A program made the position numbers and the translations under genes. Positions 22,087-25,944 of a stretch of 64,000 nucleotides of DNA are shown here, one piece after another. Position 1 is the first letter of the stretch; every line of letters begins with the position of its first letter. Source of the DNA: Lactobacillus sp. ESL0680 (lineage in GTDB: Bacteria > Bacillota > Bacilli > Lactobacillales > Lactobacillaceae); the NCBI RefSeq assembly GCF_029392855.1, contig NZ_CP113945.1, positions 868,001-932,000 on the forward strand, in the 5' to 3' direction. The notes beneath the pieces were generated by a model. It was not told the origin of the DNA, did no database searches, and saw nothing but the letters and a program-made list of their open reading frames with translations.

Positions 22087-22828
22087 GTTCTATCTCAAAT
22101 ATTTGTTCATTAATAAAGTCGTAACTTTGAAACGATTGGTTAATCTTTCTCAGTTGTGGTGAATGGTGCAGGTTCATTGTTTGCCAAAAAGCAGGCGAAT
22201 TAGTTGCACCGTTTTTTTCGCCGACAAAGAGAAGGTGGCTCTTAGGATTATACTTTTTCCATGCTGCAACTGCCAATAAGTCACTCTCAGTAAAGTTAGG
22301 TGCCCATGAGCAAATAACCAAATCAACATTTGCAAACTGCTTGATTGCTTGTGCTGCATCTAAGTCTACTACATCAAAGGCTGGTTTACTTCCCGTTGCC
22401 GAAGTCTTAGACCATTCTAAAGAATCAGTCGCAATTGTCTTGATTTGCACCTCGGCCAAAGCCTTTGACCAGTATGCGTTACCTGCCATAATTTCTAGTG
22501 CAGTTGTCACATGCAATTGTTCTTTAATTAAGCGCGCCGTTGTTAGATTGGGCAATGACCAGAGACCATACCTAATTGATAAAAATTGCCGCAAGCTGTT
22601 CAGTAATTGGTTTAATACTTTGAGATTTGCGTCCTGCTCCTGCCCCACTTGCTGCAAAACTGCTTCAACTTCATCGGGCAACAAGCCTAATTTGGCAGGA
22701 GCCGTTTCTAACACTTGGTGCTGGTCTAACTTATTGATAATTTGGTTAATTTCTGCAACCTGCTGATTGACTGCTGGATGCTTAATTTGCCTGTTTAATT
22801 GGTTAATTTTGTCTAAAAAATTTGTCAT
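22076..22828 (-). CDS. SAM methyltransferase-like protein
   Basis: A 250-aa protein. Residues 1-85 look like an amphipathic helical region rich in Gln, Leu and Ile. The second half has a Rossmann-like pattern: TALEIMAGNAYWSKAL would be motif I, IKTIATDSLEW the acidic motif II, and VDLVICSWAPNF motif IV. Motif I keeps E-x-x-x-G but lacks the usual GxGxG, so catalysis is uncertain. Lactobacilli often carry such SAM-MTase-like proteins without known substrate. It is the first gene of the minus-strand run and diverges from lepB across 82 nt. It overlaps the membrane-protein gene by 11 nt. Confidence 0.6.
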   Translation of the reverse strand: MTNFLDKINQLNRQIKHPAVNQQVAEINQIINKLDQHQVLETAPAKLGLLPDEVEAVLQQVGQEQDANLKVLNQLLNSLRQFLSIRYGLWSLPNLTTARLIKEQLHVTTALEIMAGNAYWSKALAEVQIKTIATDSLEWSKTSATGSKPAFDVVDLDAAQAIKQFANVDLVICSWAPNFTESDLLAVAAWKKYNPKSHLLFVGEKNGATNSPAFWQTMNLHHSPQLRKINQSFQSYDFINEQIFEIEHEI

Positions 22829-22876
22829 ACTTCAATCCCTCTATTGATTTTACCATTCAAACAGACAGATTTCAGT

Positions 22877-22905
22877 TATAATAAAAGATAATAAACAAAG
22901 GAGAA
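22877..22905 (+). promoter_or_regulatory. -10 element and ribosome binding site of lepB
   Basis: A perfect TATAAT at 22877-22882 lies about 28 nt before the AAAGGAG ribosome binding site of lepB. No convincing -35 is visible at 16-18 nt. Confidence 0.55.
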
Positions 22906-22910
22906 GTTTT

Positions 22911-23483
22911 ATGGCAAAAAAAGGAAATAAACAAAACGAAGAAGAAAGTTTAGGGAAATTTATCCTTGACGTTGTAGTAATGATGGTTGTCATTTTAGGT
23001 ATCTTTTGGCTGGTCTTCACCTATGCTCTGTCAAACGATAGTGTATCTGGTCCGTCAATGCAGCCAACGTTTGAAAATAATGACCGTTTGATATCTGTGC
23101 GGCACTTTGAACCTAAGCGCAATGATGTTGTTGTTTTAAAAGCACCTAAAGCCGCACAAGATGTCCCGGGCGCTCTTTACATCAAACGGGTTATTGGTCT
23201 ACCTGGTGATAAATTAGTTTCCAAAAATGACAAAATGTACATCAATGGCAAGTTATTTAAAGAACCATATTTAGATAATAGTCTTAAAAAGGCTGACAAC
23301 GACGCCGGACAAACCTACACAAACAATTTCACTTATACAGTTCCTAAGGGTTACTACTGGGTCATGGGCGATCACCGCGACATTTCCAAAGATTCACACA
23401 TCTTTGGTCCTGTTAAAAGAAGTGCCCTGGTTAGCAAAGTTGTCTTTCGTTACTGGCCATTTAACAAAATTCAAGGATTTTAA
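22911..23483 (+). CDS. lepB: signal peptidase I
   Basis: Removes signal peptides from secreted proteins at the outer face of the membrane. The 190-aa protein has a charged N-terminus, one membrane segment at about residues 17-38, then box B SGPSMQPTF with catalytic Ser49, box D YIKRVIGLPGD with catalytic Lys92, and box E GDHRDISKDSH. This is the single-span Gram-positive type. The usual box E N-S-x-D is S-K-D here, which is a tolerated variant. AAAGGAG precedes the ATG. It stands alone, followed by the 63-aa gene under its own promoter. Confidence 0.95.
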   Translation: MAKKGNKQNEEESLGKFILDVVVMMVVILGIFWLVFTYALSNDSVSGPSMQPTFENNDRLISVRHFEPKRNDVVVLKAPKAAQDVPGALYIKRVIGLPGDKLVSKNDKMYINGKLFKEPYLDNSLKKADNDAGQTYTNNFTYTVPKGYYWVMGDHRDISKDSHIFGPVKRSALVSKVVFRYWPFNKIQGF

Positions 23484-23495
23484 TATAGTTTCTCT

Positions 23496-23523
23496 TTGAA
23501 TTTAACGGATTTTTCGTTAAAAT
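23496..23523 (+). promoter_or_regulatory. promoter of the 63-aa gene
   Basis: TTGAAT (23496-23501), a 16-nt spacer and TAAAAT (23518-23523). A strong AAAGGAGG follows just before the ATG at 23546. Confidence 0.65.
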
Positions 23524-23545
23524 GAAATTGTAAAGGAGGATAATT

Positions 23546-23737
23546 ATGAATCATCAATTAGAAGAACTATCCGATGCGATTATTGATTATCAAGTACAAC
23601 ATCACGTCACGGATACTGATTTAGCTTTTGCCAGCCACTTATCAGTTGAAAAAATTCATGCAATGAAAACTGGCGAGGGTGAATTCACTCCTGAAGAAAT
23701 TAATCAGCTTTACGATTACATGGCAGCTAGCCATTAA
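23546..23737 (+). CDS. small HTH-like protein, 63 aa
   Basis: A 63-residue acidic, helical protein with an ideal AAAGGAGG site and its own promoter and terminator, so it is almost certainly expressed. TDLAFASHLSVEKIHAMKTG followed by FTPEEINQLYDYM resembles a stripped-down Cro/CI-type helix-turn-helix (helix, turn, recognition helix, then a short helix), but it has few basic residues. I do not recognise a characterised family; similar short proteins are common in lactobacilli. It could be a small regulator or a protein partner. Confidence 0.75.
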   Translation: MNHQLEELSDAIIDYQVQHHVTDTDLAFASHLSVEKIHAMKTGEGEFTPEEINQLYDYMAASH

Positions 23738-23749
23738 GTCTAACTTAAT

Positions 23750-23784
23750 AAAAGACCTTCAAGTTAATCCTTGAAGGTCTTTTA
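23750..23784. terminator. bidirectional terminator
   Basis: AAAGACCTTCAAG at 23751-23763 pairs with CTTGAAGGTCTTT at 23770-23782, with A- and T-runs on both sides. It ends the 63-aa gene on plus and could end the minus-strand small-peptide transcript described next. Confidence 0.88.
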
Positions 23785-23818
23785 TTGCGCTAAACGTGTT
23801 TTACAGTCAGTCATGTTC

Positions 23819-23896
23819 CTATCTAATCCAACTTATGACATTGCAAATTATGGATACAACAGAAACGATTAAAAATGTTTCCTCAGATTTTTTCAT
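23819..23896 (-). CDS. putative 25-aa hydrophobic membrane peptide
   Basis: A 25-codon frame with a near-ideal AAGGAG 7-8 nt before its ATG. The peptide starts MKKSEET and continues with FLIVSVVSIICNVISWIR, a single predicted membrane helix flanked by charges at both ends. The size, helix and strong translation signal are those of type I toxins or small membrane regulators, but no named family fits. Its IVSxVSxxxNxI pattern recurs in the interrupted frame at 23976-24101. The terminator at 23750-23784 follows 35 nt downstream. It is too short to be certain without expression data. Confidence 0.5.
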   Translation of the reverse strand: MKKSEETFLIVSVVSIICNVISWIR

Positions 23897-23924
23897 TTGA
23901 AAACTCCTTGAGTTTTGCTATACT
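23897..23924 (+). promoter_or_regulatory. rightward promoter of an antisense RNA
   Basis: TTGAAA (23897-23902), a 16-nt spacer and TATACT (23919-23924) form a near-consensus sigma-70 promoter. It starts right next to the ATG of the minus-strand 25-aa peptide. No plus-strand gene follows until far beyond, so it would make a non-coding RNA. Confidence 0.6.
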
Positions 23925-23930
23925 TAAGAC

Positions 23931-24076
23931 AAAGGGACAAGCATTAGCCCGTCCCCTTGTCGGTTATTTAACGGTTCAATGAATAAATAGCCGAATCAAG
24001 TTAACAAGATTAGAAACAAAGCTTACAATGATGCTTAACTTTTTGAAAGTAAACTAGTTGAGAGCTTTTTTCTTTT
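23931..24076 (+). ncRNA. candidate antisense small RNA, about 145 nt
   Basis: Its predicted start is 7 nt after the TATACT at 23919-23924. The 5' end falls in an imperfect hairpin (23928-23961; arms GACAAAGGGAC and GTCCCCTTGTC with one mismatch). The 3' end is a 7-bp stem (24034-24040 with 24056-24062) followed by T6 and T4 runs to 24076. It has only a 9-codon frame without a ribosome binding site. It is complementary to the minus-strand transcript that carries the small peptides. The T-run doubles as lysine codons on the other strand, so the terminator could be coincidental. Confidence 0.4.
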
Positions 24077-24101
24077 GCTTGCGGTACTCTTTTCGAGTCA
24101 T
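23976..24101 (-). pseudogene. small reading frame interrupted by TAG, paralogous hydrophobic segment
   Basis: From an ATG at 24101 the frame reads a very basic 15-aa peptide (MTRKEYRKQKKKALN) and then TAG at 24056-24054. Staying in the same frame past TAG gives FTFKKLSIIVSFVSNLVNL and RLFIH, then TGA at 23978-23976. The hydrophobic part shares IVSxVSxxxNxI with the 25-aa peptide downstream. It may be a nonsense-mutated small membrane peptide, a short basic leader peptide that is real as it stands, or chance. GGGAAG lies about 10 nt before the ATG. Confidence 0.4.
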
Positions 24102-24123
24102 GGAATTCACTTCCCGCTTATAA

Positions 24124-24157
24124 ATTGTTAGCTATTTCAGCTAACAATCATATTATA
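24124..24157 (-). promoter_or_regulatory. leftward promoter and 5' stem-loop of the small-peptide transcript
   Basis: A perfect minus-strand TATAAT at 24157-24152 would start transcription near 24146. That is the edge of a perfect 10-bp hairpin, ATTGTTAGCT / AGCTAACAAT (24124-24148, 5-nt loop). A 5'-terminal stem is typical of stable, translationally controlled type I toxin messages. The -35 is weak. Confidence 0.45.
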
Positions 24158-24216
24158 CATATTCAAATATATAATAAAAGATGCTTTTGCAATTTTTTGA
24201 AAATAAAATTACATGC

Positions 24217-24252
24217 AAAAAGTGCTCCTAATTGTGTTAGGAGCACTTTTTT
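24217..24252 (-). terminator. terminator of the permease array operon
   Basis: AAAAAGTGCTCCTAA, TTGTG, TTAGGAGCACTTTTTT: a perfect 15-bp stem just after the end of the last, broken permease copy. Confidence 0.88.
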
Positions 24253-24256
24253 AATA

Positions 24257-25098
24257 TCAATTATTAGCTTTTGCTTCAACAACTTTATTAATTAAGTAAA
24301 GATTAATTGCTAGAAGCAGGATACCTATTAGCAGTAAAAAGCTAACTGTACTATGCACACTAGTCAAATATTGACCAGCAATAAAATTTAGCGGGTAATT
24401 CAATGCTTTGGGCAAAAAATTTAGCGTTGTCAGCAGTGGCCGATAAATGCCAGATAAAAATAACAGCCAGAGTAGCATTAATATTACGCCATTGGACTTG
24501 CCATTAAAAGCCGCGCTAATAATTTGCCAGCAGAAACAAATTAAATTAATTTAATTACCAAAAGACTAACAATCACCAGCAATAGAACTAGTCCAATTAG
24601 TTCAACAAGTCTAGTAGCAGCATCTCCATTCCAGCTAATAATTTGGCTGGCTTGACGAAATTCTTGCAAAAAGTCATTATGAAAACTGCTGCTGGTCATA
24701 AAAGAAAGACCAAAAATACAAATTAAACCAAGTAATTGCAAAACTGCCAGATAAATCATGCTAACGAGTGCACTTAGTAGATTAACTAAATAAAAATTAG
24801 TGTCACTAACAGGAATTAACCGCCAAGTTTGGCTAGTACAATTCTGCTGCATTTGAAAGATAATTATTGTGGCCAAAATTAACTGGCACAAAAAACTCAA
24901 AGCAATCGTAAAAATCCCCCACTGTGGTAAAAAGTCAGTCATCGCTAAATGGTAAAAATAAACCTGCATTCCATTATGGCTAAACCAATTGCCAACAGCA
25001 ATTACCAATGCTGCCAATAACTGAATTCCAAATAGTAAGTAGATTGATTTTCTCTTTTGCTTGAGTATTACATCAAATAACTTAGTACAATTAGTCAT
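24257..25098 (-). pseudogene. fourth ABC-permease paralogue, frameshifted
   Basis: Two frames together cover one copy of the permease family. 25098-24541 encodes 185 aa with the family N-terminus (FDVILKQKRKS), five hydrophobic segments and the signature SQTWRLIPVSDTNFYL, then stops at a TAA in the AT-rich ATTAAATTAATTTAATT. The remainder continues in another frame (LICFCWQIISAAF and onward, ATG at 24478) and ends NLYLINKVVEAKANN, the conserved family C-terminus. One frameshift near 24541-24560 explains both pieces. The intact copies are 272-276 aa. I see no reason to treat the 73-aa piece as a separate gene. Confidence 0.82.
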
Positions 25099-25125
25099 TT
25101 TTACGCCTTCTTGCTACTGCAGCAA

Positions 25126-25944
25126 CTATTTATTAGCCTTTGCCTCAAATGTTTTATTGATTAAGAACAGATCGATTGCCCCAACAAATAAATTAAAGAT
25201 TACCAAGGCAGTAATTCCGCCTAGTAATTGAAGCTTTGCGGCACCCAGAAACATTAATTGGAACGGCAATTTTAAAATTGGTAAAACAATATTAGCAGCA
25301 CCAACACTCAGCCAGTAAACTAACAAAAAGATAATGAACCTAGTAACCTTTAATCCTAATTTTCCTGAAAAGTTTGGCAAAAAGTCAACAATCGTCTGAC
25401 TGCTGAAATTTAAAAAGCTAACGGTAAGGTAAACAGCTAAAGTTATTAAAAGTAATACCACTACAATTTGGCACCACTTGAACCAGCCAATCTTCGCCAT
25501 ATCATTAAAGAAATCCATTACCATTGACCACTGCCCGCTAATTGAATAGTGCAATAGCATCGGCCCAATTCCGCAAAGAAACTCTAGCAGGACTAAAATC
25601 ACAAATGAAACAAGTGAACTGGTAATGTTGCTCAAATAAATGGTATTTTCGGTAGCTGGAACCAGCCGCCAAGTTTGACTATGGTTGATTTTTTCTACGT
25701 CAGAGATAGTCGCAAAGAGGCTGCCCAAGACGGCTATGAACCCAGTCCACGTAACAATCCTTGCTAAATTTAACAAAAAGCTGCGAATCATATTCATATA
25801 AGGATTACCTGGCGTTGCAATTGCCTTAAAAGTCATTACTCCCGCCAAAATCATGGCAGCAACTAATTGGATGGCAATGACTTGCAACAACTTTTTGCTC
25901 TTATTTTTAAATAATTCTCCAAATAACTGTCTGAAACTTATCAT
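25126..25944 (-). CDS. ABC-2-like membrane protein, paralogue 3
   Basis: A 272-aa integral membrane protein with about six hydrophobic segments. The cytosolic N-terminus is FRQLFGELFKNKSKK. The array signature is SQTWRLVPATENTIYL after the second segment pair; SFLNFSSQTIVDFLP follows the fifth segment and the end is LINKTFEAKANK. It belongs to a set of four tandem paralogues beside a single ABC ATPase, so it is most likely a permease subunit. The substrate is unknown; peptide antibiotic or lipid export is only a guess from YtrA-type regulation. The gap to paralogue 2 is 20 nt. Confidence 0.78.
   Translation of the reverse strand: MISFRQLFGELFKNKSKKLLQVIAIQLVAAMILAGVMTFKAIATPGNPYMNMIRSFLLNLARIVTWTGFIAVLGSLFATISDVEKINHSQTWRLVPATENTIYLSNITSSLVSFVILVLLEFLCGIGPMLLHYSISGQWSMVMDFFNDMAKIGWFKWCQIVVVLLLITLAVYLTVSFLNFSSQTIVDFLPNFSGKLGLKVTRFIIFLLVYWLSVGAANIVLPILKLPFQLMFLGAAKLQLLGGITALVIFNLFVGAIDLFLINKTFEAKANK

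Follow-up and report, generated by a model that had tools for sequence, protein, structure and literature searches.

The gap between convergent genes examined here lies in a 64,000-nucleotide stretch of DNA (the window; G000:C1:868001-932000 of a 1.71 Mb genome in one contig) and holds one copy of an approximately 400-bp two-peptide cassette, which occurs in seven copies in five of 75 Lactobacillus genomes. The cassette runs in the order promoter, 5' hairpin, first peptide frame (P1), 15-bp hairpin, nested antisense promoter and second peptide frame (P2). We favor, with moderate confidence, the reading that it is a type I toxin-antitoxin-like unit with the layout of yonT-yoyJ/SR6, whose transcription and toxicity we presume from sequence; the window copy suggests loss of the main toxin. 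The original observation of this gap is largely sound, and its prediction of a type I toxin-antitoxin-like locus probably names the correct kind of system as far as the family goes, the layout being backed by the seven copies, covariation in the hairpin, an antisense -10 element kept in all seven and the same motif at 23 of 30 Hol_Tox loci. At the family level the sequences place a small hydrophobic peptide opposite an antisense RNA gene, the arrangement by which type I systems are recognized; in the window the main toxin frame, P1, is interrupted by a stop.

Distribution of the cassette in Lactobacillus

A search of Lactobacillus genomes, which the original prediction had named as its check, recovered the same arrangement in the copies W (window), G000b, G010a, G010b, G015, G051 and G055, where G000 is the window's own genome and G000b a second copy in it at C1:663183-663468. 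The nearest named carriers are Lactobacillus sp. ESL0701 (G055) and Lactobacillus sp. ESL0679 (G010), strains presumably of bee origin. When 100 relatives were searched at the DNA level, 35 had a match at E <= 0.01, for the most part pieces of 20-60 bases, and the long matches fell in G055, G051, G010 (two places), G015 and the second place in the window's own genome.

A covariance model of the hairpin-promoter core was built from the seven copies, whose 66.7-100.9 bits are matches by construction; it gave some match at E <= 0.5 in 45 of the 75 genus genomes and no further convincing copy among them, the next best scoring 39.6 bits. Ten lower-scoring core alignments were inspected, and in seven, five of them identical, the antisense -10 columns were wholly or partly gapped; we read these as terminators followed by a ribosome-binding site. 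Another of the ten, L087, carries TTATAACA at the antisense -10 columns. The P1 profile, built from four copies, detected the window P1, despite its interruption, at E 1.2e-9, found G015 in fragments at E 0.06-0.08, missed the G051 remnant, and gave some match at E <= 0.1 in 16 of the 75 genomes. Among the 397 family and 395 order genomes sampled it was convincing only in G000, and four other matches in these samples (E 0.0015-0.0019) were not accepted as members. Matches to the P2 profile at E <= 0.01 occurred in 8/75 genomes; those in four of the eight, weak and inside longer frames, were not counted. The viral contigs, plasmids and phages searched yielded no cassette copy, an Rfam scan of the window found nothing at the gathering threshold, and literature judged by title or abstract start held no description of this cassette.

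Promoters, hairpins and peptide frames

The presumed promoter of the sense (toxin) mRNA has its -10 box, TATAAT, at 24152-24157 on the minus strand, as originally predicted, with no good -35; among the six copies that keep the leader the box reads TATAAT in four, CATAAT in one and TATGAT in one. The predicted 5' hairpin is likewise present in the leader at 24124-24148 (minus strand). It folds with z-scores of -3.9 to -5.5 in four of the six copies and more weakly in G000b (-2.4) and G015 (-1.1), and by eye the stems vary in sequence among copies yet keep their pairing. The terminator that had been placed at 23750 exists as a palindrome near 23751-23787; it is a bidirectional terminator of the flanking convergent genes, outside the cassette, and a similar one stands (by eye) at the cassette-free site of G015. 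Within 22800-25200 the window alone has 11 promoter-like sites, compared with 9.6 +/- 3.3 in shuffles, and one terminator-like site, compared with 1.4 +/- 1.3; the leftward promoter is missing from the list of promoter-like sites in this interval. The signals of the locus do not beat chance in single-sequence statistics, and it is the comparison among copies that shows them to be real.

P1 begins at ATG 24101 on the minus strand and is cut at codon 16 by an in-frame TAG (24056-24054), the next stop being TGA at 23978-23976 (frame 23976-24101). The original description of two mini-frames with hydrophobic segments needs correction for this first frame, whose hydrophobic half, past the TAG, has no start of its own that we could see. 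The G051 remnant carries a TAG at the aligned position. P1 is open in G055 (41 aa), G010a (45), G010b (47) and G000b (47), and shorter in G015 (27 aa), on a common plan in which MTR..YR.A and lysines form a cationic N-terminus and a hydrophobic stretch forms the C-terminus. Over 41 ungapped codons, P1 dN/dS was 0.23-0.43 in eight of ten pairs, values that overlap with the antisense RNA could distort, and dS was not computable in the other two. Pfam and NCBIfam scans of P1 and P2 returned only matches far below the curated cut-offs, a PHROGs scan returned nothing, and a comparison of P1 with 5.8 billion proteins gave no candidate sharing three words, the query being too short to be informative. 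By their sequences, P1 and P2 match none of the families described.

Between the two frames lies the 15-bp middle hairpin (23928-23961, minus strand), which may form the 3' end or a stability element of the P1 mRNA. In the seven-copy alignment (A4) 95.1% of its cells are paired, and six pairs have changed on both sides, a count reached by 14 of 500 shuffles; the 12 cells with both-side changes exceed the shuffled mean of 4.0 (0/500), and the covariation score is 0.479 compared with 0.302 in shuffles (0/500) and at most 0.206 in slid controls. Further pair types were no more numerous than in shuffles (427/500). The hairpin is stabler as sense RNA in all seven copies, with a margin of 0.6 kcal/mol in G051 and of 7.7-10.2 kcal/mol in the other six.

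The opposing promoter, predicted as TTGAAA-16-TATACT, is present at 23897-23924 on the plus strand, with a TG ahead of its -10 (TGCTATACT), and overlaps the ribosome-binding region of P2. The extended -10, TGnTATAmT, is kept in 7/7 copies, with a -35 ranging from TTGAAA-like to TTTAAA-like at a spacing of 16-17. A start inferred from the -10 would give an antisense RNA at 23931-24071 (plus strand) that ends at T6 (24066-24071) inside P1, so that the predicted length becomes about 141 nt in place of about 145. A run of T5-6 stands at position 132-141 of the predicted RNA in six of the seven copies and at position 88 in G015. The antisense terminator region folds with z <= -3 in four copies (G051, G010a, G010b and G000b), and with -1.4 in G055, -1.5 in G015 and 0.4 in the window. 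It is stabler on the antisense strand in only three of the seven (G055, G010a and G010b), and z-scores of -3.4 to -4.5 occur on its sense strand too, in G051, G010b and G000b, which counts against strand-specific selection there.

P2 (23819-23896, minus strand) encodes MKKSEETFLIVSVVSIICNVISWIR, 25 aa with one hydrophobic segment, behind the Shine-Dalgarno sequence AAGGAG at 23904-23909. Across copies it has 25-35 aa, with MKK followed by a hydrophobic stretch, and is open in W, G000b, G010a, G010b and G015; the G055 frame reads 21 codons before an in-frame TGA, and G051 has lost P2. The other part of the proposed check was conservation of the peptides and of synonymous sites. In its favor are the P1 ratios given above and the two prophage copies, G000b and G010b, whose P2 genes differ by two synonymous and no nonsynonymous codon changes; two other P2 pairs have dN/dS of 0.60 and 0.21, and a third has no computable dS. 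Against it, P2 of W and G055 (aligned with one gap) differ by 1-3 synonymous and six nonsynonymous codon changes, a comparison that does not speak for constraint on P2 there.

Genomic context and mosaic structure

The gap is bordered on one side by a plus-strand gene pair, encoding a protein that by eye resembles a signal peptidase and a 63-aa protein with no Pfam match, and on the other by a row of minus-strand membrane genes, the nearest with a sub-threshold ABC-2 match; both sides converge on the gap. The membrane gene adjoining the gap (24257-25098, minus strand) is in two frames of 185 and 73 aa in the window, compared with one 278-aa frame in G055 (L112:7078-7914). By eye, the window locus of G015 has the same convergent pair together with a terminator, and no cassette. 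Among the seven loci inspected, the corresponding place has another neighbor in G010, G051 and G033 and other sequence in G107 and G105.

Prophage tail operons carry G000b and G010b, in each case between a DUF2577 gene and the gene for the contractile-tail sheath initiator. In five other prophages (G051, G033, the second of G010, G015 and G013) these two genes adjoin without a cassette, in a comparison for which 7 of 17 matches were inspected. G010a and G051 share a third location. The cassette is a discrete unit, gained or lost among sites and partly prophage-borne. The sheath-initiator gene beside G000b (L107:10562-11010, about 663.6 kb on G000:C1) is split in two frames next to an open P1 and P2, and the G000 prophage may be decaying around its cassette. 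In the region L110:5892-9173, the G015 cassette lies near a 549-aa frame that looks by eye like a transposase, as well as frames with sub-threshold CcdA and HicB-like Pfam matches.

The copies are also mosaic internally. At the same locus, W and G055 are identical in the hairpin (36/36) and the antisense promoter (29/29), and in P1 codons 16-41 W matches G055 at only 36 of 81 positions and G051 at 69 of 81. The simplest reading of these sequences would be that P1 segments, together with the antisense RNA on their other strand, have been swapped between units.

Comparison with known type I systems

Like the cassette, the yonT-yoyJ/SR6 locus of the SPbeta prophage of Bacillus subtilis has two peptide genes and a nested antisense RNA, co-transcription of the peptide genes being presumed here. 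According to two reports (PMC5848175, PMC6562991), this prophage-borne locus encodes a small membrane toxin and then a second one, and SR6 has an extended -10 promoter and overlaps the 3' end of the first message. SR6 also covers the yoyJ ribosome-binding site, whereas the cassette antisense RNA, with its predicted start at 23931, does not reach the P2 Shine-Dalgarno; YoyJ is given as 83 aa with two transmembrane segments, compared with 25-35 aa for P2, and the likeness drawn here is one of layout. TxpA/RatA, BsrG/SR4 and BsrE/SR5 likewise combine a small membrane toxin with an antisense RNA that overlaps the 3' end of the toxin mRNA. P1 differs from TxpA, BsrG, BsrE and Hol_Tox in that its charges are N-terminal and theirs C-terminal, and in that a second peptide, P2, follows it.

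The model PF16935 (Hol_Tox), which we take to cover TxpA and BsrE, matches in B. subtilis as a control and gave no match at E <= 1 to three P1 and three P2 peptides; none of the cassette loci of G000, G010, G055, G015 and G051 is among the Hol_Tox matches listed. What Hol_Tox loci have in common with the cassette is an antisense promoter motif behind the toxin, a likeness confined to the motif: the reverse complement of TGnTATAmT lies within 160 nt after the toxin stop in 23 of the 30 Lactobacillus Hol_Tox loci returned, many of which are close orthologs and not independent, compared with 4 of 480 background windows (Fisher p 8e-30). Hol_Tox exceeds the cut-off in 52 of the 75 genus genomes, with five matches at E <= 0.01 in the window genome itself. 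At G015:C1:1571045-1574495, five Hol_Tox frames are listed in about 3.5 kb.

Fst and Lpt (pAD1 par; L. rhamnosus Lpt) are described as small hydrophobic toxins under antisense control in lactic acid bacteria; the cassette differs in that its antisense promoter is nested between two peptide genes. In Fst and Ldr loci, direct repeats are common to both RNAs. Neither family matched P1 or P2 at E <= 1 in Pfam or NCBIfam, libraries that we take to hold Fst and Ldr models, and the empty NCBIfam result is in line with the earlier statement that neither family fits.

Proposed mechanism and alternative explanations

In the mechanism that we propose, the leftward promoter would produce an mRNA encoding P1, a small cationic and hydrophobic membrane peptide acting as the toxin, and read-through would yield P2, a second small membrane peptide. 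The nested opposite promoter would give an antisense RNA of about 141 nt that pairs with the 3' part of the P1 message, including the middle hairpin and the C-terminal codons. Because this RNA stops short of the P1 Shine-Dalgarno, it would most likely act by forming a duplex that undergoes RNase III-type decay, the route taken in txpA/RatA and yonT/SR6.

The setting of the cassette also allows it to be seen as a phage-derived accessory (moron) unit, whose peptides would serve, for example, in superinfection exclusion or membrane modulation without poisoning the cell, and whose antisense RNA would tune their level. The position inside the tail operon of G000 and G010, the phrog_2277 gene that follows two of the units and the lack of a match to known toxin families are all in keeping with this; layout, size, charge and antisense promoter nonetheless resemble type I toxin-antitoxin loci, including Hol_Tox loci of the same genus, and we regard the accessory role as unlikely. 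Less likely still, and in our view improbable, is a leader-peptide or attenuation device, in which P1 and the middle hairpin would control read-through into P2 and the next gene (xkdS-like or phrog_2277) and the antisense promoter would be incidental. Such a device would account for a hairpin between P1 and P2 that is selected on the sense strand, for a P2 that abuts or overlaps the next gene in G010a (by eye also in G015, G000b and G010b) and for the unclear strand-specificity of the antisense terminator region. It does not account for an antisense extended -10 kept in every copy, and in W and G055 no same-strand gene follows P2 closely before the terminator.

For the window copy alone there is close to an even chance that it is a dead remnant of a real family, a reading that overlaps with the toxin-antitoxin interpretation since it concerns this copy only. 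The TAG at codon 16, aligned with that of the G051 remnant, and the weak antisense terminator (z 0.4) speak for it, and because of these two features the main toxin of W has probably degenerated. On the other side, its P2 is intact, as are the hairpin and the antisense promoter, the latter two without a difference from G055.

For the toxin-antitoxin interpretation, the comparison points to the open copies as test objects in place of the damaged window copy, and the series of cassettes would let one test how an antisense RNA goes on matching a toxin whose sequence is changing. Annotation readily overlooks toxin genes this small, and a cassette that sets a toxin against an antitoxin on the opposite strand, has a second peptide and a phage-type gene behind it and recurs in lactobacilli would add an RNA-controlled system to Lactobacillaceae.

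phrog_2277 and a possible wider class

P2 runs into a phrog_2277 gene in G010a (E 4e-20) and in G015 (E 1.7e-5; gene frameshifted), and phrog_2277 is found in 159 of 397 Lactobacillaceae genomes, spread over 26 of 40 genera. A first set covered loci of the genus: a strongly hydrophobic frame ends at or near the start of 6/27 phrog_2277 genes, and a strict antisense -10 lies within 500 nt upstream of 6/28, G010a being included in both counts. A second set (n=89) combined 29 of the 30 returned family loci with 60 listed matches chosen down the list; here 44 of the 89 phrog_2277 genes have an abutting small hydrophobic frame, a raw count that may include chance frames. An antisense extended -10 at -260 to -60, by a loose definition chosen after seeing examples, accompanies 34 of the 44 genes with such a frame compared with 14 of the 45 others (p 1.7e-5). 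Under the strict definition the counts are 9/44 and 2/45 (p 0.027), which is weak evidence.

By script, a P1 candidate with a good ribosome-binding site together with a P2 candidate was found in 16 of the 60 matches chosen from the list. A further comparison took 17 units selected because a P1 candidate was seen (L319, a near-copy of L306, was omitted). In 14 of them the hairpin between P1 and P2 is stabler on the sense strand by more than 0.5 kcal/mol, and in ten it is followed within 45 nt by a loose antisense -10. The look-alike P1 and P2 peptides of other genera gave nothing above the Pfam and NCBIfam cut-offs, and hhalign of window P1 and P2 against the peptides of the wider cassettes returned probabilities of 52.6 and 29.4 over 12 and 5 columns. 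Homology is not supported by these alignments, and we therefore claim only a shared layout and treat the wider class as an architectural hypothesis. Tentatively, and with some doubt, W may be a decayed member of a Lactobacillaceae-wide, unannotated two-peptide type I class, composed of a promoter, a fast-changing cationic and hydrophobic P1, a sense hairpin, a nested antisense promoter with an extended -10, the second membrane peptide P2 and often phrog_2277. In this class P1 would be exchanged between units along with its own antisense RNA; as the two lie on the same DNA, toxin and antitoxin would always change hands together.

Inspected by eye, the wider cassettes often have promoters whose -35 and -10 enclose a palindrome, such as ACTATATATAGT and ACACGTTATAGCGTGT, and loci with such a palindrome promoter upstream of phrog_2277 are L175, L176, L178, L182, L191, L234, L239, L246, L249 and L259; the palindrome suggests a repressor. 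At L263, L267, L299, L305, L308 and L312, units of otherwise similar build have, by eye, a second type of P1 in place of the helix-like one, with a lysine-rich start followed by residues that alternate between polar and hydrophobic.
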